From Cryptosporangium arvum DSM 44712 (lineage in GTDB: Bacteria > Actinomycetota > Actinomycetes > Mycobacteriales > Cryptosporangiaceae): 64,000 nt of DNA. Location: positions 744,001 through 808,000 of the forward strand of contig NZ_KK073874.1 in assembly GCF_000585375.1 (NCBI RefSeq). Direction: 5' to 3'. Positions 48,227-63,226 of this stretch are shown one piece after another (positions within the stretch are counted from its first letter, which is position 1; the number at the start of each line of letters is the position of its first letter). The notes beneath the pieces were generated by a model that saw only the letters and a program-made list of their open reading frames with translations, was not told the origin of the DNA and did no database searches. Both the position numbers and the translations under genes were made by a program.

Positions 48227-49333
48227 GTGACGCTGCAGCCGCGCGAAGGTCGTATCCCCGGCGACCACTACCTCGAGACGACGCCGGAAACGGCCCAGTG
48301 GGGCTTCCTGCCCAACCGCGCCAGCGCGCCGGTGCTGAACGTGGAGAGCGGTGCGACGGTCACCATCGACACCCTCAGCCACGAGGGCATCCTGGAGGAC
48401 CAGGGTCGAGACCCGGTCGCGTACCTGGCCGGCTTCGGCGTGAAGGCGACCGAGGTGCTCGAGGACTCGCGGGTGTTCGCGGCGTCCGATCTCACCCACG
48501 ACTTCGACGACGGCCCGCACGTGGTGACCGGCCCGATCGCGGTGTCCGGCGCCGAGCCGGGCGACTTACTCCGGGTCGACGTCCTCGACCTGGGGATCCG
48601 CGCCCCCTACGGCTTCATCAGCAACCGGCACGGCTACGGCGCTCTGCCCGGCGAGTTCCCCGAGGGCACGCTGCGCCGCGAGGATGCCCACGTGCTCGAT
48701 CCGACGAGCTTCGGCAGCAACATCCACTTCACCGACGTCACCGAGAACGGCGGCGTGCTCTACGGCAACCTGCGCTTCGGCGAGGGCCGGGGCGTCCGGT
48801 TCCCGCTGCGCCCGTTCCTGGGCCTGATGGGCGTCGCGCGCGACACCGACGAGGCGGTGCCCTCGGTGCCGCCGGGTGACCACGGCGGCAACATGGACGT
48901 GAACGAGCTCCAGGCCGGCTCGACGCTGTATCTCCCGGTGCAGACCGCCGGTGCGCTGTTCTACGCCGGCGACCCCCACTACGCCCAGGGCGACGGCGAG
49001 GTGGCGCTGACCGCACTGGAGGCGCCGCTGCGCGCGACCCTGCGCCTGACCGTGCTCAAGGACGCGGCCGCGCGCGCGGCCGTCGGTGCCATCCGCAACC
49101 CGTTCGTCGAGACCGACACGCACTGGATCCCGACCGGAATGGACCCCGACCTCAACGAGGCCATGAGGAAGGCCGTGCGGGCCGCGGTGTCGTTCCTCGA
49201 GACCCACCAGGGCGTGCCGAGGGCCACCGCGCTGGCCTACCTGAGCGCGGCCGGCGACTTCGAGGTCAGTCAGGTCGTCGACGCGGTGAAGGGTGTTCAC
49301 TGCCTGATCCGCAAGGCGGACTTCGGCGCCTGA
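48227..49333 (+). CDS. acetamidase/formamidase family protein
   Basis: A 368-residue FmdA_AmdA protein: the metal/active-site region VLNVESGATVTIDTLSHEG, EPGDLLRVDVLDLGIR, YGFISNRHGYGALPG, VPPGDHGGNMDVNELQAGSTLYLPVQTAGALFYAGDPHYAQGDGEVALTALE and the C-terminal LSAAGDFEVSQVVDAVKGVHCLI are all present. The family hydrolyses short amides to ammonia and acid. The GTG start follows GAAGGAG. As the first gene of a region with PucR, amidohydrolase and amidase, it probably releases nitrogen from a small amide in that pathway. Confidence 0.93.
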   Translation: MTLQPREGRIPGDHYLETTPETAQWGFLPNRASAPVLNVESGATVTIDTLSHEGILEDQGRDPVAYLAGFGVKATEVLEDSRVFAASDLTHDFDDGPHVVTGPIAVSGAEPGDLLRVDVLDLGIRAPYGFISNRHGYGALPGEFPEGTLRREDAHVLDPTSFGSNIHFTDVTENGGVLYGNLRFGEGRGVRFPLRPFLGLMGVARDTDEAVPSVPPGDHGGNMDVNELQAGSTLYLPVQTAGALFYAGDPHYAQGDGEVALTALEAPLRATLRLTVLKDAAARAAVGAIRNPFVETDTHWIPTGMDPDLNEAMRKAVRAAVSFLETHQGVPRATALAYLSAAGDFEVSQVVDAVKGVHCLIRKADFGA

Positions 49334-49338
49334 CCCTC

Positions 49339-49354
49339 GTGTTCAGGAGAACAC
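49339..49354. promoter_or_regulatory. inverted repeat GTGTTC-AGGA-GAACAC
   Basis: Perfect repeat six bases after the amidase stop; arms extend to CGTGTTC/GAACACG. A terminator stem or an operator for the PucR gene are both possible. Confidence 0.45.
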
Positions 49355-49365
49355 GTTGAGCGACG

Positions 49366-49415
49366 ATACCTCCCGGTGACGACGGTGCTGAAGACACTGC
49401 GTGACCGGGAGGTAT
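49366..49415. promoter_or_regulatory. widely spaced 12-bp inverted repeat at the PucR gene start
   Basis: Arms ATACCTCCCGGT (49366-49377) and ACCGGGAGGTAT (49404-49415) with 26 bp between, just before the PucR coding region. The right arm holds a ribosome-site-like GGGAGG, so pairing in RNA could hide it. An autoregulatory operator is equally possible. Confidence 0.5.
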
Positions 49416-49425
49416 GGTTCCGCCC

Positions 49426-50679
49426 ATGGAGGGCGGTCGGGTTCCCATGACGTCCCGCCCGATCGCACCGCGCGGAGGGCCGGTCTCTCCGGCGGCGACC
49501 CCGGAGGAGTTCGAGCGGGAGCTCAACCAGCTCACGCTCGGTGGCGAGGGCTGGTCGGCGATCCTGCGCCGGTTGGCCGCCCACACCGGCCACGCCGCCT
49601 GGCTGTTCGACGTCCACGGCGCGTTGCTGGCCACCTCGGTGCCGCCCGGCACGGAGGCGCCGAACGTCCGGGCCTCGGACGTGGCGCAGGTGTTCGGGGC
49701 CGAGCGGCCGGTGCCGCTGACCATGTCCGACGGACGGCCCGTCCGGGCCGCCGCGGTCCGCGCCGACCGGCGCCGGTTCGGCATCGTGCTGCTCGCCGAG
49801 CCGGTCTCCCCGCCGGTCGTGCCGTACCTGCTGGCGGCCACGACCGCGCTCGCGATCGAGGCGGTCCGCCGGGACGCCGCCGCCGAGGCGGGGTCGGCCG
49901 CCGGCGCCGACCTCGTCGACGAGTTGCGCTGCGGCACGTTGCGCGCACCCGACGACCTCACCCGGGCCGCCGCCCGCTTCGGTATGCGCCTGGACGCCCC
50001 GCACGCCGGTGCGGTCTTCGACTACGACGGGCCGCACGTGCGCGCCTGGGCCACCGCGCTGCCCCGGGCCGGCGTGACCGCGCTCCACCAGGGACGCCGG
50101 GCCTGGACCGTGCTGCCGGGCGGTGAGGACGGCGAACTCGAGCGGCTGCGTGAGCGCGCGCAGGCCGTCGTCGGCGACGGTGTGGTGCGTGCCGCGTCCG
50201 GTCCGGTGGTCAACGGCGCCGACCGGACCGCGAACTCGTTCCGTGAAGCCGAGGTGCTGCTGGCGCTGCTGCTGCGGCGCAGCTCGACCCGCGGCGACGC
50301 GCTCGTGCTGCCGTACGGATCGCTGGGCCTGGCGCAGCTACTGGTCACCGTGCCGCCGGAGCGCCTGCGCGAGTTCGTCGAGCGGCACCTCGGACCGCTG
50401 CTGCCCCGCGAGGACCTGATCCGTACGCTGCGCGCGTGGCTGGCGTCCAGCGGCAGCCGCACCGCCGTCGCCGACGCGCTGCATCTGCACCGCAACTCGG
50501 TCGGCTACCGGGTAGGCCAGATCAAGACGCTGCTCGGCGTCGACCCGTTGGACCCGGAAGCCATCGTGCTGCTGCAGGCGGCGCTCACCGCCCAGGAGTT
50601 GCTGTTGGCTCTGGACGAGCACGATCCTGTCGTCGGCGGCTGGTTCTCGGACCGTCCCGGCGTGACCAAAAGACCCTGA
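49426..50679 (+). CDS. PucR family transcriptional regulator
   Basis: A 417-residue regulator. The first 150 residues are a sensor-like region (WSAILRRLAAHTGHAAWLFDVHGALLATS), followed by the GGDEF-like PucR core (about 190-260) and the C-terminal PucR helix-turn-helix (about 345-400: TLRAWLASSGSRTAVADALHLHRNSVGYRVGQIKTLLGVD). This family activates purine, allantoin and other nitrogen-source genes. Three ATGs (49414, 49426, 49447) compete; the middle is used. It lies between formamidase and the first BMP lipoprotein, so it is a likely regulator of the locus. Confidence 0.9.
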   Translation: MEGGRVPMTSRPIAPRGGPVSPAATPEEFERELNQLTLGGEGWSAILRRLAAHTGHAAWLFDVHGALLATSVPPGTEAPNVRASDVAQVFGAERPVPLTMSDGRPVRAAAVRADRRRFGIVLLAEPVSPPVVPYLLAATTALAIEAVRRDAAAEAGSAAGADLVDELRCGTLRAPDDLTRAAARFGMRLDAPHAGAVFDYDGPHVRAWATALPRAGVTALHQGRRAWTVLPGGEDGELERLRERAQAVVGDGVVRAASGPVVNGADRTANSFREAEVLLALLLRRSSTRGDALVLPYGSLGLAQLLVTVPPERLREFVERHLGPLLPREDLIRTLRAWLASSGSRTAVADALHLHRNSVGYRVGQIKTLLGVDPLDPEAIVLLQAALTAQELLLALDEHDPVVGGWFSDRPGVTKRP

Positions 50680-50760
50680 CCAGTGGCTTCGACCTGATTG
50701 CCCGGTTTCTGCGTGTGACTAGTGTGCTCTGAAGGTGTAAGGACCCCCGGAAGGACCCCC

Positions 50761-51864
50761 ATGAGACTGTCCACCCGAATGACGCGCATCGCGGTGGCCG
50801 CGGTCTGCTTGATGCTCGCTGTCACGTCGTGCAGCGAGGAGAATCGCTACGCGGACGTAGCGGTCGCCGCCACCGCCGACAACAGCGGGCAGGCCGACAT
50901 CAACAAGGACGGCAAAGTCGTCATCCTGGTGTTGAGCCCCGGTGACCTGAACGACAACGGGTACTACGAGAGCTTCCTGAACAAGGCGTCCGCGTTCGCC
51001 GCCCGTCAGGGCTGGACGATCGAGCGGCAGGGCAACATCAAGCCCGGCACCTCGCTCGCGGCGGCGAAGAAGTACTGCGCCCAGTACAAGCCCGACCTGG
51101 TCGCGCTGGGCGCCTCCGAGATCGAGGACGCCATCCCCGCGGCCACCAACGGCGACTGCGGCAAGGCCTACTGGTACGTCCCGTCCAGCACGATCACCGA
51201 CGAGCGGCCGGGCATCGTCGTCTCGCAGGACTTCACCTTCGAGAGCGTCATCGCGGCCGGGTACGCGAGCGGTCTCCTGATGAAGTTCAAGGGGTACGAC
51301 AAGGCCGGCTTCATCTCCGGCCCGGCGGTGGGGTTCGCGACCGACGCGGCGAAGGCGTACTACGCCGGCCTCAAGCTCGCACTCGGCAGCTCGCCGCTCG
51401 AGTTCAAGGCGGTCTTCACCGGTGACCTGAACGACGGCAAGCTCGCCTCCGCGGCCATGAAGGAACTGGCCGACGAGGGCGCCAAGGCCGTCTACCCCTA
51501 CCTGGGTGGTGGCACCGATCCCGCGGCCAAGGTGGGCAACTCGCGCGGGGTCCTGCTGGCGACCCCGGGTACCAACCGGTGCGACTCGACCGACCCGAAG
51601 TTCGACGTCTCGGTCATCTTCGACCCGGGAGAGTACTTCGCGGCGGCGCTGCAGGACTTCGCCGAGGGCGAGCTCAAGATGGGCACGCGCCGGGTCTGGC
51701 ACATCGGCGTGGACCAGGTGCCGACCGTGCGTCTCTGCAACGGCACCGACGACCAGAACGCGGAACTGGCGCAGTTCATCACGAACATCGGTAGCGGCAA
51801 GGTGAACGTCACCGGCGAAGTGAACAAGTACGGCCCGCAGGTCGAGCTTCCCCCCGCCAGCTGA
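50761..51864 (+). CDS. BMP-family substrate-binding lipoprotein 1
   Basis: A 367-residue lipoprotein with a lipobox LAVTSC at the end of the N-terminal signal (MTRIAVAAVCLMLAVTSC). The mature part has the BMP fold with LVLSPGDLNDNGYYESFLNKASAF, DLVALGASEIEDAIPA, KAGFISGPAVGFATDAAKAYYAGL, AVYPYLGGGTDPAAKVGN and FDPGEYFAAALQDFAEGELKMG. Members bind nucleosides or related compounds for ABC uptake. No ATPase or permease follows directly, unlike the paralogue at 55395, so it probably shares that transporter. A purine-rich AAGGA precedes the ATG. Confidence 0.92.
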   Translation: MRLSTRMTRIAVAAVCLMLAVTSCSEENRYADVAVAATADNSGQADINKDGKVVILVLSPGDLNDNGYYESFLNKASAFAARQGWTIERQGNIKPGTSLAAAKKYCAQYKPDLVALGASEIEDAIPAATNGDCGKAYWYVPSSTITDERPGIVVSQDFTFESVIAAGYASGLLMKFKGYDKAGFISGPAVGFATDAAKAYYAGLKLALGSSPLEFKAVFTGDLNDGKLASAAMKELADEGAKAVYPYLGGGTDPAAKVGNSRGVLLATPGTNRCDSTDPKFDVSVIFDPGEYFAAALQDFAEGELKMGTRRVWHIGVDQVPTVRLCNGTDDQNAELAQFITNIGSGKVNVTGEVNKYGPQVELPPAS

Positions 51865-51893
51865 CCCAGCGCGACACCTTTACTACGGCGAGT

Positions 51894-51929
51894 AGCAGTG
51901 GATCCGGCGACGTCGCCGGATCCACTGCT
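51894..51929 (+). terminator. 36-bp perfect palindrome with TTTT, terminator
   Basis: The arm AGCAGTGGATCCGGCGAC is followed with no gap by its exact complement, then TTTT. It lies 30 bp past the lipoprotein 1 stop. A very strong hairpin, suggesting tight termination. Confidence 0.8.
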
Positions 51930-52207: not shown

Positions 52208-53236
52208 GTGCGGGCGATGGTGCAGACCGGTTTCGGCGGCCCCGAGGTCGTGACCGCGCAGGACGTCCCGGTACCCACGATCGGCGCGGACGAGGTGCTG
52301 ATCCGGGTCGCGGCGTGCGCGGTCAACCGGATGGACCTGCTGCAGCGTCAGGGCCCGGCGCTGCTCCCCGGCTTCGCGCTTCCGCACGTACCCGGGATGG
52401 ACATCGCCGGCACGGTCGCCGAGGTCGGCTCGGCCGTCTCCGATCTGACCGTCGGCAGCCGGGTCGTCGTCGACCCGGTGCTGGGCTGCGACGAGTGCAC
52501 GTACTGCGTGGCCGGCGACTTCGGATACTGCGGAGACGTCCGGGTGACCGGAGGCAACCGGCCCGGTGGGTACGCCGAGTACGTCGCGGTCAAGGCGGTG
52601 CAGACGCACCCGGTGCCCGACGAGGTCGAGCTGACCACCGCGGCCGCACTCCCGTCCTCCTGGTCCACCGCGTACCACGCGCTGTTCCCGGTCGGCCGGC
52701 TCGCCGCCGGCGAGACGATCCTGATCCAGGCCGCGGCCAGCGCGGTGAGCATCGCCGCCGTGCAGCTGGCGATGGAGGCCGGCGCGCAGGTCGTCGCGGT
52801 CGCCGGCAGCCAGGCCAAGCTCGACGCGGTGCGCGCGCTCGGCGTCGAACACTGCGTTCCGCTCGACGCGGATCCGGTCGCCTACGTGCGTGAGCTCACC
52901 GGCGGCCGGGGCGCGCAGATCGTGCTCGACCACGTCGGCCCCGCAACCTGGCCGCTCTCGTTGAGCGCCCTCGGCGTCCGCGGACGCCTCGTATTCATGG
53001 GTCAGACGAGCGGGAACGAGGTGACTTTCGGACTCACGGGTGCGTATCACCGCGAGCTCTCGTTGCTCGGTTCAGGTGCGTACACCCCGGAGGACTTCCA
53101 CCGGGCGCTGACCGCGTTCTGGTACGGCAAGCTGTCCGCCCCGATCGCCGCCGTCCTGCCCCTCGAGGGGCTGTCGGAGGCGTTCGACGTGCTCACCGAC
53201 CGCACCACGGTCGGAAAGGTGCTGGTGACCCCGTGA
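52208..53236 (+). CDS. zinc-type alcohol dehydrogenase/quinone reductase
   Basis: A 342-residue medium-chain dehydrogenase: the GHEG-like PHVPGMDIAGTVAEVG, the structural zinc loop GCDECTYCVAGDFGYC, the ALPSSWSTAYHAL segment, the cofactor region ILIQAAASAVSIAAVQLA (modified GxGxxG) and the C-terminal TTVGKVLVTP. It probably oxidises an alcohol or reduces an enone with NAD(P)H. GTG start after GAGGAGG. Its stop overlaps the amidohydrolase start (GTGA), so it is part of the catabolic operon. Confidence 0.9.
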   Translation: MRAMVQTGFGGPEVVTAQDVPVPTIGADEVLIRVAACAVNRMDLLQRQGPALLPGFALPHVPGMDIAGTVAEVGSAVSDLTVGSRVVVDPVLGCDECTYCVAGDFGYCGDVRVTGGNRPGGYAEYVAVKAVQTHPVPDEVELTTAAALPSSWSTAYHALFPVGRLAAGETILIQAAASAVSIAAVQLAMEAGAQVVAVAGSQAKLDAVRALGVEHCVPLDADPVAYVRELTGGRGAQIVLDHVGPATWPLSLSALGVRGRLVFMGQTSGNEVTFGLTGAYHRELSLLGSGAYTPEDFHRALTAFWYGKLSAPIAAVLPLEGLSEAFDVLTDRTTVGKVLVTP

Positions 53237-54690
53237 CCTCCCTCCTGATCGTCGGCGGCGACGTCGTCACGATGGCCCCGGGCCGCGAGGTGCTGACCGG
53301 TGCCACGATCGCGGTCGTCGACGGCCGGATCGCGGCGTTGGGCACGGCCGAGGAGCTGCGGCTGCGCTACCCCGACGCGGACGAGCTCGACGCCACCGGC
53401 TGCGTCGTCGCGCCCGGCATGATCAACGCCCACCAGCACACGACCGCCGACCCGCTGACCCGCAGCGGCATCCCGGACGACATCGGCGCCCAGGACGCGA
53501 TCTTCAACTGGGCCGTGCCGCTGCACAACGCGCACACCGGTGGCGACGACGAGATCTCGGCGATGCTGACCGCGGCGGAGTCGCTGCGCCGGGGCGTCAC
53601 GACGATCATCGAGCCCGGCACGGTCGCGCACCCGCTGCGGGTGGCGGCCGGCCTCCGTAAGACCGGTATCCGCGCCCGCCTGAACGGCTGGGGCTGGGAC
53701 ACCGAAGGGCTCCCGTTCGCTGCCCCCGCGGCCGACGTTCTCGCCCGACAGGAGGAGATCGTCCGCGAGCTCGGCACCACCGACCGGGTCAGCGCGTGGA
53801 TCACGCTGCTCGGCCACGACCTGTGCTCGGACGCGCTGTTCCAGGGCGCGGCCGAACTCGCCGAGCGGCTCGACACCCGGATGACCTGGCACATCTCGCC
53901 GGGGGAGAACGACATCCCGGGGTACGCGCAGCGGTCGGGCAACCGGCCCGTCGTTCACCTGCACAAGCTGGGCGTACTCGGCCCGCGCCTGCTGCTCGGC
54001 CACGCGGTCTGGCTCGACGACGACGAGGTCGACGCGATCGTCGGGACCGACACCGCGGTGGCGTCCAGCCCGGGCGCGTACCTGCGCCTCGGCCAGGGCT
54101 TCACCCGGGCCGCCCGGCACGTCGAGATCATCCGGCGCGGTGGCCGGGTGGCGCTGGGCTGCGACTCGCACAACGCGAACGACGTACCCGACATCTTGCG
54201 CGCCGCGATGCTTTTCGCTGGGCTTTCGCTCGATCGGGGCGATACTGACCCCGTGCACGCCCACGAGGCGCTCGCGCTGGCCACGATCGACGGCGCCCGC
54301 GCGATCGGGCTCGACCACGAGATCGGCTCGATCGAGGTCGGCAAAGCAGCCGACGTCGTCGTCTACGACACGACCGACCCGGTCTGGACGCCGCGTGGCG
54401 ACGAGGCGCTCCAGCTGGTGTGGGGCATGCCGAGCCACACCGTGCGCGACGTGGTCGTCGACGGCACCGTGGTCGTCCGCGACCAGCGGCTGCAACTGAT
54501 CGACTACGACGACCTCCGGGCCTGCGCGAAGGAGAACTCGCACCACCTGCTCCGGCGGACCGGCATCGAACCGTTCCGCCGCTGGCCGCGAATCGCCGCG
54601 GCCGAACTTGAAGCAGCTTCGGGAGGGCCGGCCGCGCCCGAAGCCGAGCACGGTGCCGCCGGGCAGACAGGAGAGGTCCAATGCCCGTAA
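53233..54690 (+). CDS. ATZ/TRZ-type amidohydrolase (cytosine/guanine deaminase-like)
   Basis: A 485-residue metal hydrolase of the amidohydrolase superfamily. The first strand motif NAHQHTTADP gives the H-x-H ligands, TWHISPGEND and LLGHAVWL the next His, and LGCDSHNANDV the late Asp; the C-terminal beta domain ends with DVVVDGTVVV. This set is typical of chlorohydrolase/cytosine deaminase-type enzymes that remove ammonia or chloride from heterocycles. GTG start overlaps the ADH stop; the 3' end overlaps the flavin reductase gene by 10 bp. The substrate is not known. Confidence 0.9.
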   Translation: MTSLLIVGGDVVTMAPGREVLTGATIAVVDGRIAALGTAEELRLRYPDADELDATGCVVAPGMINAHQHTTADPLTRSGIPDDIGAQDAIFNWAVPLHNAHTGGDDEISAMLTAAESLRRGVTTIIEPGTVAHPLRVAAGLRKTGIRARLNGWGWDTEGLPFAAPAADVLARQEEIVRELGTTDRVSAWITLLGHDLCSDALFQGAAELAERLDTRMTWHISPGENDIPGYAQRSGNRPVVHLHKLGVLGPRLLLGHAVWLDDDEVDAIVGTDTAVASSPGAYLRLGQGFTRAARHVEIIRRGGRVALGCDSHNANDVPDILRAAMLFAGLSLDRGDTDPVHAHEALALATIDGARAIGLDHEIGSIEVGKAADVVVYDTTDPVWTPRGDEALQLVWGMPSHTVRDVVVDGTVVVRDQRLQLIDYDDLRACAKENSHHLLRRTGIEPFRRWPRIAAAELEAASGGPAAPEAEHGAAGQTGEVQCP

Positions 54691-55322
54691 TCAACCTGGA
54701 CGGCCTGACCGGGGCGCAGAAGCAGGGAATGATCTCCCAGCTGGTCGTGCCGCGGCCGATCGCGATGATCACGACCACCGACCCGGACGGCAAACTCAAC
54801 GTGGCGCCGTTCAGCTATTTCATGCCGGTGTGCGGGGAGCCGCCGACGATTGCCGTCACGATCGGCACGGTGCGCGAGGCGACCGCCGAACCCAAGGACA
54901 CCTGGGTCAATCTCCAGCATTCCGGGGAGTTCGTCGTCAACCTCACGAGCACCGCGCTGGCGGACCATATTGAAACTGCCGCCAAAGAGTTTCCAAACGG
55001 TGTCAATGAAGCCGAGTTGATCGGCTGGGACACTATTCCGTCGCAGGTGGTAGCTCCGCCATCGCTTGCGGTGAGCCCTGCACACATGGAATGCCGCGTC
55101 GTCGAAGTAATCGATCGTGGAGACCCCACGTCGTGCTTCTCGGGTGTCCATATCGTCCTCGCCGAAGTGGTTTGTATCGTCGCGGACGAGGCCATCCTGG
55201 CCGGTCCTAATCGGATCGACCCCACTAAGGTCTCCCCGGTCGGCCGCATGGGCTTTCCATGGTTCGTCGCAGCCGCCGGTGAGGCTCTCTTCGAACAGGA
55301 ACGCATCGCGTATTCGGCATGA
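54681..55322 (+). CDS. flavin reductase-like FMN-binding protein
   Basis: A 213-residue flavin reductase family protein: QLVVPRPIAMITTTDPDGKLNVAPFSYFMPVCGEPPTIAVTIG, and later EFVVNLTS and GWDTIPSQVVAPPSLAVSPAHMECRVVEVIDRG. It binds FMN and usually supplies reduced flavin, though some members act otherwise. It is like RutF-type partners of monooxygenases, but no matching oxygenase is adjacent, which is odd. It is the last gene before a 73-bp gap to the second BMP lipoprotein. Confidence 0.87.
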   Translation: MPVINLDGLTGAQKQGMISQLVVPRPIAMITTTDPDGKLNVAPFSYFMPVCGEPPTIAVTIGTVREATAEPKDTWVNLQHSGEFVVNLTSTALADHIETAAKEFPNGVNEAELIGWDTIPSQVVAPPSLAVSPAHMECRVVEVIDRGDPTSCFSGVHIVLAEVVCIVADEAILAGPNRIDPTKVSPVGRMGFPWFVAAAGEALFEQERIAYSA

Positions 55323-55394: not shown

Positions 55395-56471
55395 ATGAGA
55401 CTGAACACTCGTGCGGTGCGTGTCGCGGCTGCCGCGGCATGCATCGCTGTCTCGCTCGCGGCTTGCACGAGCCCGGGCGACGACACGGCTGAGACCTCCA
55501 GCTCTTCGTCTGCGGAAAGCAGCGCTGCCGGTCCGGACGTCAACGGCGACGGCAAGGTCATCGTCGGCGTGCTCAGCCCGGGTGACCTGAACGACAACGG
55601 TTACTACGAGAGCTTCGTGGCCAAGGCCGAGGAGTTCACCAAGTCCAAGGGCTGGCAGCTGATCAAGGTCGGCTCGGTCAACCCGGCCGACGCCCTGAAC
55701 CAGGCCCGCAACCTGTGCCGCCAGAAGGTCGACCTGGTCGCCCTCGGTGCCGCCGAGCTCAAGGACGCCATCCCGGCCTCCGAGGAGTCGGTCTGCGCCA
55801 AGAGCTCGTGGTACGTCCCGTCGTCCGCGGACATCAAGCAGACGCCGAAGATCACGATCTCGCGCGACTTCATCAACGAGGTCGTCTACGCGACCGGCTA
55901 CGCCAACGGTCTCCTGATGAAGGAGAAGAACATCAAGAAGGCCGGTTACGTGACCGGTCCCGAGGCTGACTTCTCCGTGCAGGCCGCCAAGGCGTTCAAG
56001 GCCGGCATCAAGGAGGTCGTCCCGGACGCCACCCTGGTGACCACCTACACCGGTGACTTCAACGACTCCGGTAAGGCCAAGGAAGCCGCCCAGGCGCAGG
56101 TCAGCCAGGGTGTCGGCGCGCTCTACCCGTACCTGGGTGGTGCCACCGACGAGGTCGCGAAGTTCGGCAACACCAAGAACCTCATCCTGTCGACGCCCGG
56201 CACCGACCGGTGCGCCTCGACGTCGCCGAAGTTCCAGGTCTCCTCGATCTTCGACCCGGGTGAGTACTTCGCCGCGGCGCTCCAGAAGTTCTCCGACGGC
56301 CAGCTGAAGATGGGCGTCGCCCGCGAGTGGCACATCGGCAAGGACCCGGTCCCGACCGTGAAGATCTGTGGCGGCACCGCGGCCCAGAACACCGCCCTCG
56401 AGACGTTCATCAAGAACATCGGCGACGGCAAGGTCGACGTCGACGCTCAGGTCGCGAAGCTCGGAGCCTGA
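55395..56471 (+). CDS. BMP-family substrate-binding lipoprotein 2
   Basis: A 358-residue lipoprotein: signal with lipobox LAAC, then Ser-rich spacer (SSSSSAESSA) and BMP fold: GVLSPGDLNDNGYYESFVAKAEEF, DLVALGAAELKDAIPA, KAGYVTGPEADFSVQAAKAF, ALYPYLGGATDEVAKFGN and FDPGEYFAAALQKFSDGQLKMG. It clearly shares the fold and motifs of lipoprotein 1. A downstream ATPase and two permeases make it the dedicated receptor of the uptake system; substrate probably nucleoside-like or a related N-heterocycle. AGGAC precedes the ATG. Confidence 0.94.
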   Translation: MRLNTRAVRVAAAAACIAVSLAACTSPGDDTAETSSSSSAESSAAGPDVNGDGKVIVGVLSPGDLNDNGYYESFVAKAEEFTKSKGWQLIKVGSVNPADALNQARNLCRQKVDLVALGAAELKDAIPASEESVCAKSSWYVPSSADIKQTPKITISRDFINEVVYATGYANGLLMKEKNIKKAGYVTGPEADFSVQAAKAFKAGIKEVVPDATLVTTYTGDFNDSGKAKEAAQAQVSQGVGALYPYLGGATDEVAKFGNTKNLILSTPGTDRCASTSPKFQVSSIFDPGEYFAAALQKFSDGQLKMGVAREWHIGKDPVPTVKICGGTAAQNTALETFIKNIGDGKVDVDAQVAKLGA

Positions 56472-56472
56472 C

Positions 56473-58080
56473 GTGAACGACGGCCAGACTAACGACGCTC
56501 CGCGCACTCTCGAGGCGCCGGCGCTCGAGCTCCGTGGCGTGACGAAGTGTTTCGGTCCGGTCGTCGCCTGTGACGCCGTGGATCTCGCTGTGCACAGCGG
56601 CGAGATCCACGGCCTCCTGGGAGAGAACGGCGCCGGCAAATCCACGCTCATGAAGGTGCTCCTCGGTCTCGTCCAGCGGGACGAGGGCACGGTCCTGCGC
56701 CACGGGGAGCAGGTCGAGATTCCCACCCCGCAGGCGGCGGTCACGCTCGGGATGGGCATGGTGCACCAGCACTTCAGCCTGATCGAGCCGCTCACCGTCT
56801 GGGAGAACGTCAGCCTCGGCGAGCCCGGGCGCATCAAGCGCGACGAGGTCTGCGACCAGATCAAGGACGTCGGTACCCGCTACGGGCTGCCGATCTCACC
56901 GATCGCCCGGGTCGAGGACCTGTCCGCCGGCGAGCGTCAGCGGGTCGAGATCATCAAGTGCCTCCGGCGCGATCCCGAGGTGCTGATCCTCGACGAGCCC
57001 ACCTCGGTGCTCACGATGGCCGAGTCGCAGGAGCTCTTCGAGGTCCTCCGGGACGTCGTCAACCGGGAGAACCGCGCGGTCATCCTGATCAGCCACAAGC
57101 TGGCCGAGATCATGGCCGCGACGGACCAGGTGACGGTGCTGCGCAAGGGTTCGGTGGCGTTCCGCTGCCGCACCTCGACCACGAACCCCCGCGAGCTGGC
57201 CAAGCAGATGGTCGGCCGGGAGGTTTCGCTGGGCACCGAGGGCGCGGCCCTCGGTCTGATCAGCGAGGACACCACCCCGGAGGAGATCCAGGCCGCGGCC
57301 GACGTCACCCCCGAGGTCGCCCCGGTCGAAGCCAAGACCCCGGCGTTAGCGCTGAGCGACGTCGTGGTGAAGGGCCTGGACGGGCGGACGCTGCTCGACA
57401 ACTTCGCCCTCACCGTGTCGCCCGGCGAGATCCTCGCGCTCTACGGCGTCGAGGGCAACGGCCAGGCCACGCTCGGCGACGTGATGTCGGGCCTGCTCGA
57501 ACCGACGTCCGGCACGGTCGCGGTCAACGGCGCGACGGTACCGATGAACAAGGTCGGCGCGCTGCACAAGGCCGGCGTGGGCGTCGTGCCCGAGGACCGG
57601 CACCGCTCCGGCGTCGTCCTGGACATGTCGGTGCTCGACAACCTGGTGATGACCGACCTCGGTCGGGTCAGCGGCCGGTTCCTGCTCAAGCGCCGGGAAG
57701 CGCGGAAGATCGCCGCCCGGCTGATCGAGCAGTTCAACATCTCGACGCCGTCGATGGACACGCCACTGCGCAACCTGTCCGGCGGTAACCAACAGAGGGT
57801 CGTCCTGGCCCGCGAACTGTCGACCGACCCGAGCGTGCTGGTCGCCGCGCAGCCCACTCACGGGCTCGACGTCGGCGCGATCGAGGACATGTACGAGCGG
57901 CTGCGTGCCGCGGCCGGCCGTGGAGTCGCCGTGCTGCTGATCACCACCGAGCTGGAAGAGGTGATGGCACTCGCGTCCCGGGTGGCCGTGATCTCGTCCG
58001 GCCGGACGGTCGGCGTGCTCGACATCCACGAGGCGACCGCCGAGCGGCTCGGCATGCTGGTCGGAGGCGAGGCAGCATGA
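56473..58080 (+). CDS. BMP-type sugar/nucleoside ABC transporter ATP-binding protein
   Basis: A 535-residue protein with two ATPase domains. The first has Walker A GENGAGKSTLM, signature LSAGERQRVEI and Walker B VLILDEPTSVL. The second has a degenerate Walker A (GVEGNGQATL, Lys missing), signature LSGGNQQRVVLAREL and VAAQPTHGLD, as usual for YufO/RbsA-type ATPases. It powers uptake with the two permeases and BMP lipoprotein. GTG start, one base after the lipoprotein stop. The permease start overlaps its stop (ATGA). Confidence 0.94.
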   Translation: MNDGQTNDAPRTLEAPALELRGVTKCFGPVVACDAVDLAVHSGEIHGLLGENGAGKSTLMKVLLGLVQRDEGTVLRHGEQVEIPTPQAAVTLGMGMVHQHFSLIEPLTVWENVSLGEPGRIKRDEVCDQIKDVGTRYGLPISPIARVEDLSAGERQRVEIIKCLRRDPEVLILDEPTSVLTMAESQELFEVLRDVVNRENRAVILISHKLAEIMAATDQVTVLRKGSVAFRCRTSTTNPRELAKQMVGREVSLGTEGAALGLISEDTTPEEIQAAADVTPEVAPVEAKTPALALSDVVVKGLDGRTLLDNFALTVSPGEILALYGVEGNGQATLGDVMSGLLEPTSGTVAVNGATVPMNKVGALHKAGVGVVPEDRHRSGVVLDMSVLDNLVMTDLGRVSGRFLLKRREARKIAARLIEQFNISTPSMDTPLRNLSGGNQQRVVLARELSTDPSVLVAAQPTHGLDVGAIEDMYERLRAAAGRGVAVLLITTELEEVMALASRVAVISSGRTVGVLDIHEATAERLGMLVGGEAA

Positions 58081-59240
58081 GCGAATCCCGCAAGTTCCCC
58101 AACGTCGCCGAGCTGATGCGCCCGAGCGGCTACGGCATGCAGGTCACGCTGATCACGCTGGTCGCGGTCGCGGTCGCCGTGCTGGCGTCGATGGGCCTGG
58201 TCTCGGCCACCGGCGGCTCGCCCGGCGACGCGCTCAACGCGCTCTACACCGGCAGCATCGCCGACACCGCGGCGTGGAGCGAGACGCTCAAGGCCGCGAC
58301 GCCGCTGCTGCTGGTGGCGCTCGGCGCGTGCATCAGCAACCGGGCAGGCGTCTTCAACATCGGGCAGGAAGGCCAGGTGCTGCTCGGCGCGGCCGTGGCC
58401 GCCTACGTGGCGCTGCACCTCGCGCTGCCGGGCGTCCTGGTGATGGTCCTGAGCCTGCTGGCCGGCGCGATCGCCGGTGGTCTCTGGTCCGGCGCGAGCG
58501 CGGTCATGCACTACACCCGCGGCGTCAACGTCGTCGTCAGCACGCTGCTGATGTCGTTCCTCGCGATCCAGCTCGTCAGCTTCGCGCTCACCGTGCAGTG
58601 GCTGCTGCAGGCGCCCCGCGCCAGCGCGGACAGCATCGCGTCCACCGAGTCGGCGCAGCTGCCGCCGGCGGTGCGGATCCCCGGCTTCGGTGAGTACCCG
58701 GCGCTGGAGATCGGCGGCGGCCTGGTCCTGTCGATCATCCTGACGATCGTCCTGGCCGTGCTGCTCGCCCGCAGCCGGTGGGGTTTCCGGCTGAACATGC
58801 TCGGCCTCAACCCGATGGCCGCCCGCCACGCGGGTGTCCGGGCGCCGTGGGCCGGCGGCATGGCGCTGGCGCTCTCCGGTGCGTTCGCCGGTCTGGCCGG
58901 CGCGGTCATCCTGTCCGGCCAGGTGTTCCGCCTGCAGCCGGCGCTGTCGAACAACTTCGGGTGGGACGGCCTGCTGGTCGCCCTGATCGCCCGCAGCCGT
59001 CCGCTCGCGGCCGTGCCGGTCGCGCTGCTGTTCGGCGCGTTCCGCTCGGGCTCGAGCTTCCTCGCGTCGACCGGCGTGCCGAACTACCTGGTGGACATCG
59101 TCCAGGCGCTGCTGGTGCTCGCCTTCGTGGTGCCGCCGGTGCTGGCGAAGGTGAAGTCGCGTGGCCGGGCTGAGGCCACGCCGCCTCCCACCGAGCCCGT
59201 CCCCTCCACGCCCACCGAGCCCGAGAAGGTGACCGCGTGA
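58077..59240 (+). CDS. BMP-type ABC transporter permease 1
   Basis: A 387-residue permease of the BPD_transp_2 family with about nine or ten helices. Core motifs NRAGVFNIGQEGQVLLGAAVAAYVAL and the EAA-like RWGFRLNMLGLNPMAARHAGVRAPWAGGMALALSGAFAGLAGAVILSG are intact. The N-terminal 30 residues are cytoplasmic; the C-terminal tail is Pro/Glu/Thr-rich. It pairs with permease 2 to form the membrane channel. Its stop overlaps permease 2 (GTGA). Confidence 0.94.
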   Translation: MSESRKFPNVAELMRPSGYGMQVTLITLVAVAVAVLASMGLVSATGGSPGDALNALYTGSIADTAAWSETLKAATPLLLVALGACISNRAGVFNIGQEGQVLLGAAVAAYVALHLALPGVLVMVLSLLAGAIAGGLWSGASAVMHYTRGVNVVVSTLLMSFLAIQLVSFALTVQWLLQAPRASADSIASTESAQLPPAVRIPGFGEYPALEIGGGLVLSIILTIVLAVLLARSRWGFRLNMLGLNPMAARHAGVRAPWAGGMALALSGAFAGLAGAVILSGQVFRLQPALSNNFGWDGLLVALIARSRPLAAVPVALLFGAFRSGSSFLASTGVPNYLVDIVQALLVLAFVVPPVLAKVKSRGRAEATPPPTEPVPSTPTEPEKVTA

Positions 59241-60148
59241 TCGGCACCGACGAAATCACGACGATCGTCGCCAGCTCGCTGCGGTTGACGGCACCGCTGG
59301 CGTTCGCCGCCTGCGGTGAGTACCTGGCCGAGCGGGCCGGGACGCAGAACATCTCGGTCGAGGGCATGATGCTCGGCGGCGCGTTCGGGTCGGTCGCGGT
59401 GGCCAGCGCCACCGGCAGTGCGACCACCGGGCTGCTCGCCGGCGCGATCGTCGGCCTGGTCGTGGGCTTCGTCCACGGCAACCTGTCGCACCGGATCCAG
59501 ATCAACACGTTCGTCGTCGGCCTGGTGCTCAACGCGTTCGTCCTCGGCCTCACGAGCTTCCTGATCGCGGTCGCGGAGTTCGACAGCAACCAGGTCGGTC
59601 AGCTGAGCATCCCGGGGCTGCGCGACATCCCGATCATCGGGCCGCTGTTCGAGCAACGCTGGCCGATGTATCTGCTGTTGTTGATCATTCCGCTGACGTG
59701 GTGGCTGGTCGAGCGGAGCCGGTGGGGTCTCAACCTCCGGGCGATCGCCGACAACCCGCAGGCCGCGGACGTCACGGGCCTGAAGGTGAACAAGCTGCGC
59801 CGCCAGGCGCTGCTCTACGCCGGTCTGCTGTCGGGTCTGGGTGGCGCGTACCTGGCCACCGCCGAGGTCGGTTCGTTCAACATGAACATGACCGCGGGTC
59901 GCGGCTTCATCGTCATCGCCGCGGTCATCTTCGGCGCTTGGCGTCTGAAGGGCACGATGATCGGCTGCCTCGTGTTCGGTTTCGCCGACGCGCTGCGGCT
60001 GGCGCTGCCGGCGCTCGGGTTCGAGCTGAACTCGCAGCTGCTCGTCGCCGCGCCGTACCTGATGGCGCTGCTGGCGATGATGCTGTTCGCCAGCAAGACC
60101 CGCGAGCCGCGCGCTCTCGGCAAGCCGTTCGTCCGCGGGATCACCTGA
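59237..60148 (+). CDS. BMP-type ABC transporter permease 2
   Basis: A 303-residue permease of the BPD_transp_2 family: GEYLAERAGTQNISVEGMMLGGAFGSVAVASATG, INTFVVGLVLNAFVLGLTSFLI, RWGLNLRAIADNPQAADVTGLKVNKLRRQALLYAGLLSGLGGAYLA and the late FGAWRLKGTMIGCLVFGFADALRLAL. GTG start overlapping permease 1. It completes the transporter. A 51-codon ORF begins at its last base. Confidence 0.94.
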   Translation: MIGTDEITTIVASSLRLTAPLAFAACGEYLAERAGTQNISVEGMMLGGAFGSVAVASATGSATTGLLAGAIVGLVVGFVHGNLSHRIQINTFVVGLVLNAFVLGLTSFLIAVAEFDSNQVGQLSIPGLRDIPIIGPLFEQRWPMYLLLLIIPLTWWLVERSRWGLNLRAIADNPQAADVTGLKVNKLRRQALLYAGLLSGLGGAYLATAEVGSFNMNMTAGRGFIVIAAVIFGAWRLKGTMIGCLVFGFADALRLALPALGFELNSQLLVAAPYLMALLAMMLFASKTREPRALGKPFVRGIT

Positions 60149-60303
60149 TGGCAACCTCCGCGCCGACCACGTCGGCCGGACGCCCGGCCGTGGTCGGCGC
60201 GGAGGCCCGCCCGTGTTCGATCCGTACGCTGGGACGCCGCCGCGGAGCGGCGCTGGGACGCCGCCGCGGAGCGGCACCCCGGCTCGGTCTGGCGCTGTTC
60301 TGA
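60148..60303 (+). CDS. small coupled ORF (51 codons), uncertain
   Basis: The frame MATSAPTTSAGRPAVVGAEARPCSIRTLGRRRGAALGRRRGAAPRLGLALF starts one base inside the permease 2 stop (TGATG) and ends one base inside the amidase ATG (TGATG), a chained pattern. It includes two tandem 23-bp copies of a GCTGGGACGCC-type unit. It may be translated to couple the transporter and amidase genes or be a by-product of the repeat. No family. Confidence 0.35.
   Translation: MATSAPTTSAGRPAVVGAEARPCSIRTLGRRRGAALGRRRGAAPRLGLALF
60229..60275 (+). repeat. two tandem 23-bp repeats
   Basis: A unit beginning GCTGGGACGCCGCCGCGGAG occurs twice in a row just ahead of the amidase ATG. In the amidase frame it would encode AGTPPRSG twice. 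The duplication suggests slippage and makes the true amidase start uncertain. Confidence 0.7.
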
Positions 60304-61934
60304 TGGCGATCGACGGCGGTGCCGTTGCGGCGGCGCGGGAGTTCGCGGAGCGGCTGCACGCCGCACCCGTCCCGCGCACGACCGAACCGGCGGCGGTCTT
60401 CTCCGCCGCGCCGGCGTCCCCGAAGCACCCCACCGCGGTCCGCGACCTGGCCACCCGCCTGGACCCGGCCGGCACCACCGGCCCCAGCGACGCCCCACCC
60501 ACCCCCGCACCACCCGGCCCCGTCCCGGGTGGTGACGCCGCGCCGGACGACGACCTGCGGACGCTCAGCGGCGCCGCGGCCGCGCTGCGGCGGGGGACCG
60601 TCCGCAGCATCGAGCTCGTCGACGCCGCCCTGGCCGCCGGCGACAAGTCCGACGCCGAACTCGGGCTGTTCCTCTCGCGGTTCGCCGATCGCGCCCGCGA
60701 AGCCGCGCAGCGCGTCGACGACGCGCTGGCCGCGGGCGACGACCCCGGCCCGCTCTCCGGCTTGCCGCTCGGCATCAAGGACCTGCTCACCACCGAGGAC
60801 GGCCCGACGTCGGCCGGCAGCCTGGTGCCCCCGCCGGACGCCCGGCGCGACGCCACCGCGGTCGCGCGGCTCCGTGCGGCCGGCGGCATCGTGGTCGGCA
60901 AGACGCTCACGTCGGAGTACGGCGTCGGCTCACCCGACCCGGCCAAACCGCTCCCGGTGCCGCGAAACCCGTGGGACACCGCCCGCTGGACCGGCGGTTC
61001 GAGCGCGGGCAGCGCGGCCGGCCTGGTCGCCGGAGCGTTCCTCGGCGCGCTCGGCACCGACTCGGGCGGCAGCATCCGCATGCCGTCGGCCTTCTGCGGC
61101 ACCACCGGCCTCAAACCCACCTACGGACGGGTCTCCCGCGCCGGCGGGCTGCCGATGGGATGGTCCACCGACCACGTCGGGCCGATGGCCACCACCGCCC
61201 GCGACTGTGCGCTCCTGCTCTCGGTGATCGCCGGGCCCGACCCGGCCGATCCCACCACGTCGGAAGTGCCGGTTCCGCGCTACCTCGAGGGCCTCACCGG
61301 CGACCTGACCGGCGTCCGCGTCGGCGTCGACCGGCTCGACCGGGTCGGCGGTGCGGTGGCCGACCCCGCGCTGGCGAGCGTGTTCGCCGCCGCGCTCGAC
61401 GAGCTGACCGCGCTCGGCGCCGAGCTCGTCGAGGTCGCGCTTCCGCTCTACCCGGAGCTGGCCGCCGCGTCGATCGTGCTGACGCTGAGCGAGGCGTTGA
61501 CCTGGCACCGGGCGGACTTCGCCGCCCGCGGCGGCGACTTCTTCGCCAACACGCTGGCGACGGTCGGGCTCGCCGAGGCGTTCACCGCGGTGGACTACGT
61601 CCAGGCGCAGCGCGTCCGCCGGGCCGGGCAGGACGCGGTGTCCGCCCTGTTCGACGCCGTCGATCTCGTGGTCACCCCGACCGCGTCGATCGCGGCGACA
61701 CCGTACGACCGCCTCGACCGGATGTTCGAGTCCGGCGAGTTCTTCGCGGTCTACGCGCCGTACTGGAACGTCGTGGGGAACCCGGCGCTGTCGGTGCCGA
61801 TGGGCTTCACCGCGGACCGGATGCCGCTCGGCCTGCAGGTGATCGGCGCCCCCTTCGACGAGGCGCTGGTACTACGCGCCGGCGACGCCTACCAGCGCCG
61901 CACGGGCTGGCACAACGAGTGGAGAGCCCGGTGA
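60303..61934 (+). CDS. amidase (amidase signature family)
   Basis: A 543-residue amidase. After an N-terminal Pro-rich region (about 1-75) come the signature elements: catalytic Lys in GLPLGIKDLLTTEDG, the cis-Ser in RWTGGSSAGSAAGLVAGAF, the nucleophile Ser in LGTDSGGSIRMPSAFCGTTGLKPTYGRVS. The C-terminal part ends VGNPALSVPMGF...PLGLQVIGAPFDE. It hydrolyses an amide to a carboxylate and ammonia. The ATG start overlaps a small ORF stop; a GTG 30 codons upstream is possible. Its stop overlaps the FGGY gene (GTGA). It is a probable late step in the nitrogen-compound pathway. Confidence 0.92.
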   Translation: MAIDGGAVAAAREFAERLHAAPVPRTTEPAAVFSAAPASPKHPTAVRDLATRLDPAGTTGPSDAPPTPAPPGPVPGGDAAPDDDLRTLSGAAAALRRGTVRSIELVDAALAAGDKSDAELGLFLSRFADRAREAAQRVDDALAAGDDPGPLSGLPLGIKDLLTTEDGPTSAGSLVPPPDARRDATAVARLRAAGGIVVGKTLTSEYGVGSPDPAKPLPVPRNPWDTARWTGGSSAGSAAGLVAGAFLGALGTDSGGSIRMPSAFCGTTGLKPTYGRVSRAGGLPMGWSTDHVGPMATTARDCALLLSVIAGPDPADPTTSEVPVPRYLEGLTGDLTGVRVGVDRLDRVGGAVADPALASVFAAALDELTALGAELVEVALPLYPELAAASIVLTLSEALTWHRADFAARGGDFFANTLATVGLAEAFTAVDYVQAQRVRRAGQDAVSALFDAVDLVVTPTASIAATPYDRLDRMFESGEFFAVYAPYWNVVGNPALSVPMGFTADRMPLGLQVIGAPFDEALVLRAGDAYQRRTGWHNEWRAR

Positions 61935-63226
61935 CCGTTGTAGTGGGGCTGCACCTCGGCAGCGACTCGGCGCGCGCGCTCGCGCTCGGACCCGACGGCG
62001 AGGTCGTCGCGCGCGCGTACGCGCCGTACCCGGGAGCGGTCGGCTGGCCCGCGGGGCACGCCGACCCGGCGGGCTGGCTCGCGGGCGTCACGGCCGCGCT
62101 GGAGTCGGTCCTCGCGGAGTTGCCGTCCGATCGCCCCTGCGCGGCGATCAGCCTCGGCGGTCAGAGCCCCACCACGGTGCCGGCGAACGGCGGCCTGGCC
62201 GTGACGTACCGCCACCCGGCCGGAGCCACCGGTACGCCGGCCGAGCAGCACGCGGCCCAGCTCTCGGTGCTGAGCGACGAGTCCGGGGGAGGCATCGAGC
62301 CGCTGCAGGTCTACGACTGGCTCAGCGCGCGGCTCGGCGCCGAGCGCGTCCAGTCGCGCTGGCCCGGCGACCCGGAGCTGCCCGGTTACGGGCCGGTCGT
62401 CACCACCGGCGTCGCGATCGGACGCACCGACGGCAGCCACGGGCTACCGGCCGGGATCCCGCTCGTGGCCGGTGCGCAGGACGCGTACCTGGCGTTCTGG
62501 GCCGGAGCGCTGGACCGCCCCGGGCGCGGCATGGACCCCGGTGGCCGGACCGGCGGCATGGCGGTCGTGGTTCCCGAGGACGTGCGGCTGCCCGGCATGT
62601 ACGCGCTCACCAGCGCGCTCTCCGGCCTCGATATCCTCGGCGGCCCGGTGAGCGGCCACGGGCTGATGCTGGAGTGGCTCCGGACGATCACCGGGTGCGG
62701 TATCCCGGAGCTGATCGACCTGGCCGCGACCGTGCCGGCCGGCGCGGACGGCGTCCTCGTGCTGCCGTACCTGGAGGGGGCGCGGGCGCCGCGCTGGAAC
62801 CGGCAGCTGCGGGCCGAGATCGTCGGTCTCGGCTCGGACGCCGGTCGGCCGCAGCTGGCCCGCGCGGTGCTCGAAGCGACCGCCTACGGGCTGGCGCACG
62901 TCGCCGAAGGGCTGGCGGCCGGTGGGTTCACGCTGACGACGCTCGTCACGGCGGGCAACCCGGCGCGCAGCCCGCTCTGGAACCTGATCAAGGCTTCGGT
63001 GCTCGAGGTGCCGGTGGAGGTACCGGAGGAGACCGACCTGGCCGCGTACGGTTCGGCGCTGTCGGCCGGCGCCGGGGTGGGCTGGTGGCCGGGTCCCGGC
63101 CAGTGCGCGACCCACGCGTGGCCGCGCCCGACGGTGACCGTCGTCGACCCCGAGCCTCAGCAGGCCTACCACGAGGGCTACCAGCGCTTCCTGGAGTTGG
63201 GTTCCGCCTCCGAGTCGCGCAAGTAG
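61931..63226 (+). CDS. FGGY-like carbohydrate kinase family protein (atypical)
   Basis: A 431-residue protein, short for the FGGY family (usually near 490). N-terminal GLHLGSDSARALALG replaces the usual GxDxGTxSxR. The central and late motifs are GAQDAYLAFWAGAL, PGGRTGGMAVV, LEGARAPRWNRQLRAEIVGL and AGNPARSPLWNLIKASVLEVPVEVP. The segment normally holding the WxDxR catalytic Asp is not evident (GLAVTYRHPAGATGTPAEQ). It may be an unusual kinase, a pseudokinase or an acyl-type variant. It overlaps the amidase stop, so it is operon-linked. No riboflavin or sugar gene explains it. Confidence 0.75.
   Translation: MTVVVGLHLGSDSARALALGPDGEVVARAYAPYPGAVGWPAGHADPAGWLAGVTAALESVLAELPSDRPCAAISLGGQSPTTVPANGGLAVTYRHPAGATGTPAEQHAAQLSVLSDESGGGIEPLQVYDWLSARLGAERVQSRWPGDPELPGYGPVVTTGVAIGRTDGSHGLPAGIPLVAGAQDAYLAFWAGALDRPGRGMDPGGRTGGMAVVVPEDVRLPGMYALTSALSGLDILGGPVSGHGLMLEWLRTITGCGIPELIDLAATVPAGADGVLVLPYLEGARAPRWNRQLRAEIVGLGSDAGRPQLARAVLEATAYGLAHVAEGLAAGGFTLTTLVTAGNPARSPLWNLIKASVLEVPVEVPEETDLAAYGSALSAGAGVGWWPGPGQCATHAWPRPTVTVVDPEPQQAYHEGYQRFLELGSASESRK

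Follow-up and report, generated by a model that had tools for sequence, protein, structure and literature searches.

Probable front part of a riboflavin/lumichrome catabolic island in Cryptosporangium arvum

This study addressed which compound is taken up and degraded by a row of twelve genes (g1 to g12) in the actinobacterium Cryptosporangium arvum DSM 44712. The row lies in a stretch of 64,000 nucleotides (the window; G000:C1:744001-808000) of a 9.2-Mb single-contig genome and includes a BMP-type ABC transporter (g3 and g7-g10), a COG0402-like hydrolase (g5), and a PucR-type regulator (g2). The original prediction, made from the letters of the window, had described a catabolic locus for the uptake and hydrolysis of an N-heterocycle or amide and had called it undescribed and its substrate unknown. 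Our results suggest that window positions 48227-64000 form the front section of an island for riboflavin/lumichrome catabolism, a reading to which we assign a probability of approximately 0.77. The island context supports the catabolic role, whereas the other two descriptions hold inside the window only: genes resembling those of the lumichrome (lum) pathway sit 8.9-24.7 kb beyond its end, and a related plasmid island is accompanied by a riboflavin lyase (RcaE) gene. Riboflavin or lumichrome is the most likely substrate, because the lum-like back end is co-located in 12 regions and a gene for RcaE lies by the plasmid island. We regard the island as a variant of a recently published pathway, not as a new kind of system.

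A lum-like back end beyond the window

Lumichrome degradation was reconstituted with the Lum proteins (cluster lumA-Y) of Nocardioides (Pimelobacter) simplex ATCC 6946 by Sinha et al. (November 2025; PMC12746152). In that pathway, the 81-kDa LumU combines P450, ferredoxin, and reductase domains in a single chain, and LumT and LumN oxidise its products; LumH, LumI, and LumM (a 52-kDa hydrolase) are pyrimidine-ring hydrolases, LumK/L (thiamine pyrophosphate, TPP) decarboxylate, and LumJ (xanthine oxidase) hydroxylates. The quinoxaline is opened by LumA-D (Rieske) and LumE (extradiol), and LumW, LumY, and LumX finish at pyruvate and acetoacetate; lumOPQR are four transport-related genes (PMC12746152).

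The original prediction had taken 48227-63226 as the full extent of the locus, which proved too short. The conserved island continues past 64000 to G000:C1:832672 (window 88672) and spans approximately 40 kb (G000:C1:792227-832672), with g1-g12 as its left 15 kb. The Pfam scan covered every gene called at window 38001-102000, the M20 gene being assigned through its G049 homologue. Downstream of g12 lies an aldo/keto reductase (AKR) gene on the minus strand (63242-64447, of which the window holds the part up to 64000; Aldo_ket_red, 181 bits), followed by VOC, SnoaL, and TauD/TfdA genes at window 64529-66502 (TauD at 65417-66502) and then by a TOBE-ABC transport operon, probably of the molybdate type, a desaturase gene, and a two-component pair. 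The right part (window 72854-88672) carries genes for an aldehyde dehydrogenase (ALDH), an alcohol dehydrogenase (ADH), a P450/reductase/2Fe-2S fusion, an IclR regulator, and Rieske alpha and beta subunits; next come a Dabb-domain-containing extradiol dioxygenase of the VOC type, M20, FAH, an amidohydrolase, a ferredoxin, and a reductase, and the island ends with an HpcH aldolase, a cupin, and a PfkB (ribokinase-like) gene. The TOBE-domain ABC operon with its MerR-TOBE regulator (L034:4557-7641) lies between the island halves in this genus only, among the regions clustered.

The right part resembles the N. simplex cluster in family, company, and size. The P450 with fused reductase and 2Fe-2S domains, which has ADH and ALDH neighbours (L034:10857-15906), comprises 762 residues and 83.4 kDa, against the 81 kDa reported for LumU. 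Calculated masses of the island proteins were within 4 kDa of those reported for LumA, B, C, D, E, U, W, X, and Y, these proteins being matched by family and size and not by alignment; LumV was fitted by family, and the two P450 neighbours, ALDH and ADH, correspond to LumN and LumT by company. At the family level only, a LumA-E-like Rieske dioxygenase with separate ferredoxin and reductase plus an extradiol dioxygenase is present, as are the LumW/Y/X-like Amidohydro, HpcH_HpaI, and Cupin_2 families at L035:2111-5812. The best NCBIfam model for the LumE-like protein was catechol 2,3-dioxygenase (68 bits; cut-off 320), and no Lum-specific NCBIfam model was matched among the ten proteins scanned. 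The N. simplex cluster did not turn up in searches with the LumU-like P450, used as a single sequence and then as a profile, that covered 394 genomes of the class (two largely overlapping draws) and two families chosen by guess (12 and 5 genomes).

The middle steps look different. Among the genes called at window 38001-102000, the Pfam scan recognised no 80-kDa or 24-kDa hydrolase, no TPP pair like LumK/L, and no xanthine oxidase like LumJ; the sole TPP-type enzyme near the island is an 853-aa phosphoketolase (L035:16391-18952), and the TPP_enzyme_C (17) and MoCoBD_1 (7) matches of this genome are located away from it. The single-contig genome G015, which carries the island, has no MoCoBD_1 match, and a LumJ-like enzyme is therefore absent there as far as this search sees. 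Since no recognisable LumH-L-like genes lie nearby, the middle steps of pyrimidine-ring degradation are likely performed by genes present throughout, namely g4, g5, VOC, SnoaL, and mostly AKR, together with a second hydrolase (amh-II) and its methyltransferase. The mass of g5 (51.6 kDa) is close to that of LumM, a likeness of size and hydrolase class only.

The amh-II gene of this genome belongs to an unlinked ADH-methyltransferase-amh-II-VOC operon (L099:10598-14444; G000:C1:5768598-5772444) and is 83% identical to the copy on Streptomyces plasmid NZ_CP108854.1. The amh-II/methyltransferase block lies inside the island in G049, G236, G240, G443, and the plasmid; for G015 and L018, where the search covered just the DNA read around the islands, none was seen. 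A further amh-II-like hydrolase (55%) is encoded at L100:9818-11182 (G000:C1:1197818-1199182), approximately 6 kb from an FGGY kinase gene.

Conservation of the island and the link to riboflavin

The distribution of the locus was analyzed with g5 as the query, and the own genome was counted in each tally. Relatives of g5 were found in 9 of 249 genomes of the order (E <=1e-100) and, at E <=1e-110, in 10 of 394 genomes of the class and 7 of 396 of the phylum; a scan of named genomes yielded 16 loci, the last only 32% identical. Conservation of the gene order in other actinobacteria, the check proposed with the original prediction, was observed: three further species of the genus carry g1-g12 and the AKR gene in unchanged order (61-96% identity), which argues that the locus is not a chance assembly, and in all four species the island runs on to the ribokinase-like gene over approximately 40 kb.

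Twelve lum-type regions were distinguished (own, G012, G026, G036, G015, G227, G049, G236, G240, G443, L018, and plasmid NZ_CP108854.1), with four species of this genus among their sources. Two of the regions, those of G227 and L018, span just 21 kb; G227 was called lum-type from FAH, ferredoxin, reductase, M20, and IclR only, and L018 from P450, ADH, ALDH, ferredoxin, M20, and IclR only. The other ten are longer. Islands of this type occur in four genera of this order, in Microtetraspora, on the Streptomyces plasmid, and probably in a Nanopelagicales bacterium. The results revealed g4, BMP, the ATPase, both permeases, VOC, SnoaL, IclR, and M20 in all 12 regions, and P450, the LumT-like ADH, the LumN-like ALDH, Rieske alpha and beta, extradiol dioxygenase, FAH, W, Y, X (30% in G443), and TauD in all ten longer ones. 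The ribokinase-like gene is likewise present in 10 of 10 longer regions (the plasmid copy is partial), compared with one of the 16 g5 regions without lum genes (43%). Ferredoxin and reductase are found in seven of the ten, as is g6. The AKR is 63-81% identical in 7 of the 11 other lum-type regions and approximately 31% in two more; it was not seen in L018 or the plasmid. Orthologues of g1 share 87-89% identity in the three congeners and 68% within the lum half of G015, and g2 adjoins the ADH gene in G015, G227, and G049. Since the query set contained the plasmid genes for ribokinase, methyltransferase, amh-II, RcaE, and RcaB, the plasmid values of 100 for these five reflect self-matches.

The 16 g5 regions without lum genes cover 14-40 kb each; L022, L023, L031, and G554 (near copies), L028 and L029 (short), and L033 (32%) were left out, and L030, on the same contig as G443, was not counted. 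P450, extradiol dioxygenase, and pyrone hydrolase were found in none of the 16, and a Rieske alpha subunit (approximately 30%) was found in three (G430, G541, and G705). In the reverse direction, the LumU-like P450 (E <=1e-200) occurs in 3 genomes of the 394-genome class draw, the own genome included, and all three also have g5. Among 72,556 plasmid records, 19 match the P450 at E <=1e-100; of the 15 listed, one is 56% identical and the other 14 are below 38%. The sole plasmid among the matches listed with more than 40% identity also carries g5.

An independent link to riboflavin comes from megaplasmid NZ_CP108854.1 of Streptomyces sp. NBC_00841, where the island has a different order with front and back genes interleaved. 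Approximately 4 kb from this island, a protein matches the riboflavin lyase of PDB 5w48 with 698 bits over 448 residues. PfkB, LacI, and ISL3 transposase genes lie between the lyase gene and the first island gene (TauD), and this RcaE orthologue lies beside Flavokinase (riboflavin kinase) and Flavin_Reduct genes. The PfkB gene (L072:6648-7286) is partial; its 212 residues cover the first 171 of 302 profile positions and are 41% identical to the protein of this genome. RcaE and lum-type genes thus lie approximately 4 kb apart on one replicon, a pairing that PMC12746152 describes as known in no strain. Searches of PMC on lumichrome and riboflavin catabolism gave no title on this variant or on RcaE-lum co-location among the matches listed, subscription journals being mostly outside their scope, and searches by gene families gave unrelated papers only.

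A clear RcaE orthologue was found in none of nine other lum-type genomes, the best match being 41% and 373 bits in G012. The score of that LLM monooxygenase falls between the two scores of the plasmid protein, 698 bits to the riboflavin lyase and 301 bits to the next family. Of the ten genomes without a clear RcaE, nine have the ribokinase-like gene, and the tenth has a short contig. The TauD gene directly precedes the ribokinase-like gene on the same strand in G049, G236, and G240 (13, 90, and 99 bases between the alignments), and the HxD iron motif is kept in 17 of the 18 TauD family members called. On this basis, a TauD-type 2-oxoglutarate dioxygenase could, speculatively, make the ribityl cut in place of RcaE.

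The hydrolase, the transporter, and competing readings

The hydrolase g5 (amh-I; 53233..54690, plus strand; Amidohydro_1) belongs to the COG0402-like (ATZ/TRZ) metal-dependent hydrolases and keeps their metal ligands (H67, H69, H220, H257, and D311). A Glu three residues after the third His is a defining mark of the COG0402 aminohydrolases and serves as the proton shuttle of deaminases. At this site g5 carries Pro223. Of the five PDB alignments shown, four have Glu here, two of them with almost identical proteins, and the AtzA alignment is shifted out of register at this position. The replacement is present in 36 of 36 g5-type and 20 of 20 amh-II-type sequences (56 proteins, near copies included). 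The replacement of the deaminase Glu points away from simple deamination and toward hydrolysis of the ring or some other reaction, and a variant pyrimidine-ring route using a COG0402-like hydrolase with Pro for Glu can fairly be proposed. In a quick tree of 46 rows, from which the near copies L022, L023, L030, L031, and G554 were left out, 12 of the 14 g5 rows from lum-type regions formed one group across several families (SH-aLRT 94; the tool's starred level is 95), and the amh-II rows of lum-type regions (n = 5) formed a group of their own (SH-aLRT 96). The plasmid g5 grouped with the lum-type g5 and not with that of Streptomyces albipurpureus.

The transporter comprises two BMP-type substrate-binding lipoproteins, g3 (50761..51864) and g7 (55395..56471), a duplicated ABC ATPase, g8 (56473..58080; ABC_tran, two stretches), and two ABC permeases, g9 (58077..59240) and g10 (59237..60148; both BPD_transp_2), all on the plus strand. 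The Bmp match is clear for g7 (73.7 bits) and just short of the cut-off for g3 (24.0 against 24.1 bits), which is 51% identical to g7. The predicted fold of g7 (mean pLDDT 86.6) matches the PnrA, AtzT, and RfuA structures, a likeness that does not decide the ligand; g7 has no sequence match to RfuA at E 0.01. On this modelled fold, the BMP proteins g3 and g7 belong to the PnrA/AtzT/RfuA fold class. A vitamin B6 transporter was considered and rejected: the best NCBIfam model for g8, NF047930 ('putative B6 ABC transporter'), scored 416.5 bits, below its cut-off of 670.

Several observations weigh against a riboflavin/lumichrome function. In this genome the best match to RcaE reaches 36%, short of a clear orthologue, and the G012 protein is possibly a divergent riboflavin lyase. 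A TauD protein of 59-60% identity also occurs in four g5 clusters (G301, G352, G430, and G541) whose 40 kb of DNA read contains neither lum genes nor a ribokinase-like gene, which makes TauD a weak candidate for ribityl removal, and the PfkB kinase reaches 252 bits on the ribokinase model, whose cut-off is 299.65. No Rfam match, and hence no FMN riboswitch, was found in the window or five neighbouring stretches. The back end was matched to the N. simplex Lum proteins by family, company, and size only, and approximately 6 kb (the TOBE-ABC operon, desaturase, and two-component pair) splits the two island parts in this genus. In the fold search with g7, RfuA ranked 16th (E 1.3e-14), and nucleoside-binding PnrA structures ranked higher. 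Because g5 was the query that identified the lum-type regions (with the P450 as a second route to the plasmid), its presence in 12 of 12 is by construction; a g5-type hydrolase, mostly with a BMP transporter, occurs in 16 regions without lum genes; and both g5 copies of G443 fall outside the lum g5 group.

These points bear on what the front module (BMP transporter, g4, g5, VOC, and AKR) does. It may serve another substrate and merely travel with the lum genes, degrading a pterin, another pteridine, or some other N-heterocycle as a mere neighbour of the lumichrome cluster; the part common to all g5 clusters would then be defined by a shared ring and not by flavin. The 16 regions in which g5-type clusters have other partners agree with this, as do the HyuA/B, MR-type enolase, VanA-like Rieske, and AMP ligase genes of some Ilumatobacteraceae g5 clusters. 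However, the front genes are interleaved with or directly adjoin lum-like genes in G015, G049, G236, G240, G443, L018, and the plasmid, and the g5 tree tracks the presence of lum genes more than taxonomy; we consider a separate substrate for the front module unlikely.

Lum-like enzymes might also act on another ring system, in an island for a deazaflavin (FO/F420 type) or a heterocyclic aromatic xenobiotic. Such P450 fusions and Rieske dioxygenases serve many substrates, and the LumU assignment was not made by alignment; nevertheless, RcaE, riboflavin kinase, and flavin reductase genes lie beside the plasmid island and every longer lum-type region has the ribokinase-like gene, which leaves this interpretation very unlikely. 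Salvage of purines, pyrimidines, or nucleosides would account for PucR, a PnrA-like transporter, an 8-oxoguanine/deoxyadenosine deaminase-like enzyme, and a ribokinase. The best PDB matches of the BMP model are PnrA structures with nucleosides, and 5'-deoxyadenosine and 8-oxoguanine deaminase models are among the best NCBIfam matches of g5, but all of these, for the best 25 of 55 matches, are far below their cut-offs (213 of 522 bits at best), the usual Glu is Pro in every g5 relative, and the P450, Rieske, and extradiol dioxygenases of the island do not fit. To our knowledge, nucleoside salvage has no use for such enzymes, and we regard salvage as barely conceivable. Pure purine salvage was rejected on the misfit of the dioxygenases and the low g5 scores among the NCBIfam matches listed. 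The urate, allantoin, and Rut pathways were rejected likewise, no such genes being present among g1-g12; the absence of RutA, allantoinase, and xanthine dehydrogenase, on which the original prediction had relied, was borne out by the family scans of these twelve genes.

Genes of the window, proposed route, and known systems

The twelve genes are intact long open frames on the plus strand, each with the expected Pfam family, which bears out the naming of these genes in the original prediction. The remaining members are g1, of the acetamidase/formamidase family FmdA_AmdA (48227..49333; PF03069, 116 bits); g2 (49414..50679; HTH_30 and GGDEF_2); g4, a zinc alcohol dehydrogenase/quinone reductase-like protein (52208..53236; ADH_N and ADH_zinc_N); g6, a flavin reductase-like protein (54681..55322; Flavin_Reduct, PF01613, 86 bits); g11, an amidase-signature hydrolase (60213..61934; PF01425, 318 bits); and g12, an FGGY-like kinase (61931..63226). 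For g1, the GTG start at 48227 was preferred over TTG 48194; for g3, ATG 50761, with GGAAGGA upstream, was used, the start in the open reading frame list being 50722; the start of g8 was set to GTG 56473. A chain of overlapping genes had been predicted, which is true of five of the 11 junctions (overlaps of 4-10 bases); the other six are gaps of 80, 81 (42 if g3 starts at 50722), 343, 72, 1, and 64 bases.

The amidase g11 and the FGGY-like g12 are present in the window as predicted, but they lie outside the common core, occurring in this genus only among the 12 lum-type regions. The N-terminal half of g12 is shortened: FGGY_C was found and FGGY_N gave no hit in g12, both domains being expected of a complete FGGY kinase. 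Its PDB matches are FGGY kinases, and its model adopts the FGGY fold with a mean pLDDT of 74 and poor confidence in stretches 205-242 and 274-300. In its first glycine-rich motif, four own-genus copies have His, and the other four have Asp.

Close to the left of g1 lies an IS5-family transposase in two overlapping frames (window 46590-47461, minus strand). A DUF397 gene and a Sco1979-type HTH/DUF5753 regulator lie at window 44762-46484, the regulator being kept beside the island across the genus, and NIT-HAMP histidine-kinase-like, DUF742, and ATP_bind_1 genes stand in a row at window 38397-44501 and are also kept across the genus. Elsewhere, an FAD synthetase/riboflavin kinase gene occurs near g5-FGGY-VOC clusters without lum genes (L024:8472-9452 and L032:15648-16589; the L024 copy was scanned), and a flavin link for such clusters is possible. 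In L021 and L063 (Ilumatobacteraceae), genes that are urease-like by eye follow an FmdA-like gene beside the g5/BMP cluster.

On a riboflavin/lumichrome reading, the BMP-type transporter (g3 and g7-g10) would import riboflavin or lumichrome. The ribityl chain would then be removed, with the window 65417-66502 dioxygenase as a speculative candidate for the cut, and the product of the kinase-family gene at the island's end would phosphorylate the ribose. As judged by family and size, the LumU/T/N-like P450 fusion, ADH, and ALDH would convert the 7-methyl group of lumichrome to a carboxylate. The pyrimidine ring would be taken apart by g5 along a route other than that of LumH/I/J/K/L, presumably with the help of g1, g11, g4, VOC, SnoaL, AKR, and the unlinked ADH-methyltransferase-amidohydrolase-VOC operon. 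By the same type of match, LumA-E-, W-, Y-, and X-like enzymes would open the remaining rings to yield pyruvate and acetoacetate. PucR, IclR, and the two-component pair may regulate the island. It is conceivable, but rather doubtful, that single actinobacterial strains possess a second complete route for vitamin B2, in which TauD replaces RcaE and two Pro-for-Glu COG0402-like hydrolases with oxygenase and oxidoreductase partners replace LumH-L before the route rejoins the known Rieske and extradiol steps.

If the island does degrade riboflavin, degradation of the whole molecule in one organism, uptake included, becomes testable, and only a few substrates need be considered for TauD, VOC, SnoaL, and g5, enzymes of unknown reaction. 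As lumichrome is both a plant signal and a quorum signal (PMC12746152), the organisms that degrade it are relevant to soil ecology.

The transporter resembles the BMP riboflavin transporter RfuABCD of Treponema (PDB 4iil; PMC4418817) in its BMP lipoprotein, duplicated ATPase, two permeases, and the fold match of g7 to RfuA; it differs in the higher rank of the PnrA structures and the lack of a g7-RfuA sequence match at the threshold given above. With the COG0402/ATZ-TRZ hydrolases (AtzA and the MTA/SAH and 8-oxoguanine deaminases), g5 shares the HxH, H, H, and D metal ligands, whereas the Glu three residues past the third His is Pro in g5 and amh-II.

The N. simplex lum cluster has in common with the island a single-chain P450-ferredoxin-reductase, two further oxidases for these steps, Rieske alpha and beta with separate ferredoxin and reductase, an extradiol dioxygenase, FAH, a pyrone-hydrolase-like amidohydrolase, an aldolase, and a cupin. 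In contrast to that cluster, the island adds TauD, AKR, VOC, SnoaL, the g4 ADH, PucR, and ribokinase-like genes and, in this genus, also FmdA, amidase, and FGGY; the main text of PMC12746152 names none of these added families. Compared with the rca cluster of Microbacterium maritypicum, this genome shares the ribokinase-like gene only, without a clear RcaE orthologue, whereas on plasmid NZ_CP108854.1, as in that cluster, there is an RcaE orthologue, and genes for riboflavin kinase, flavin reductase, and PfkB stand next to it.

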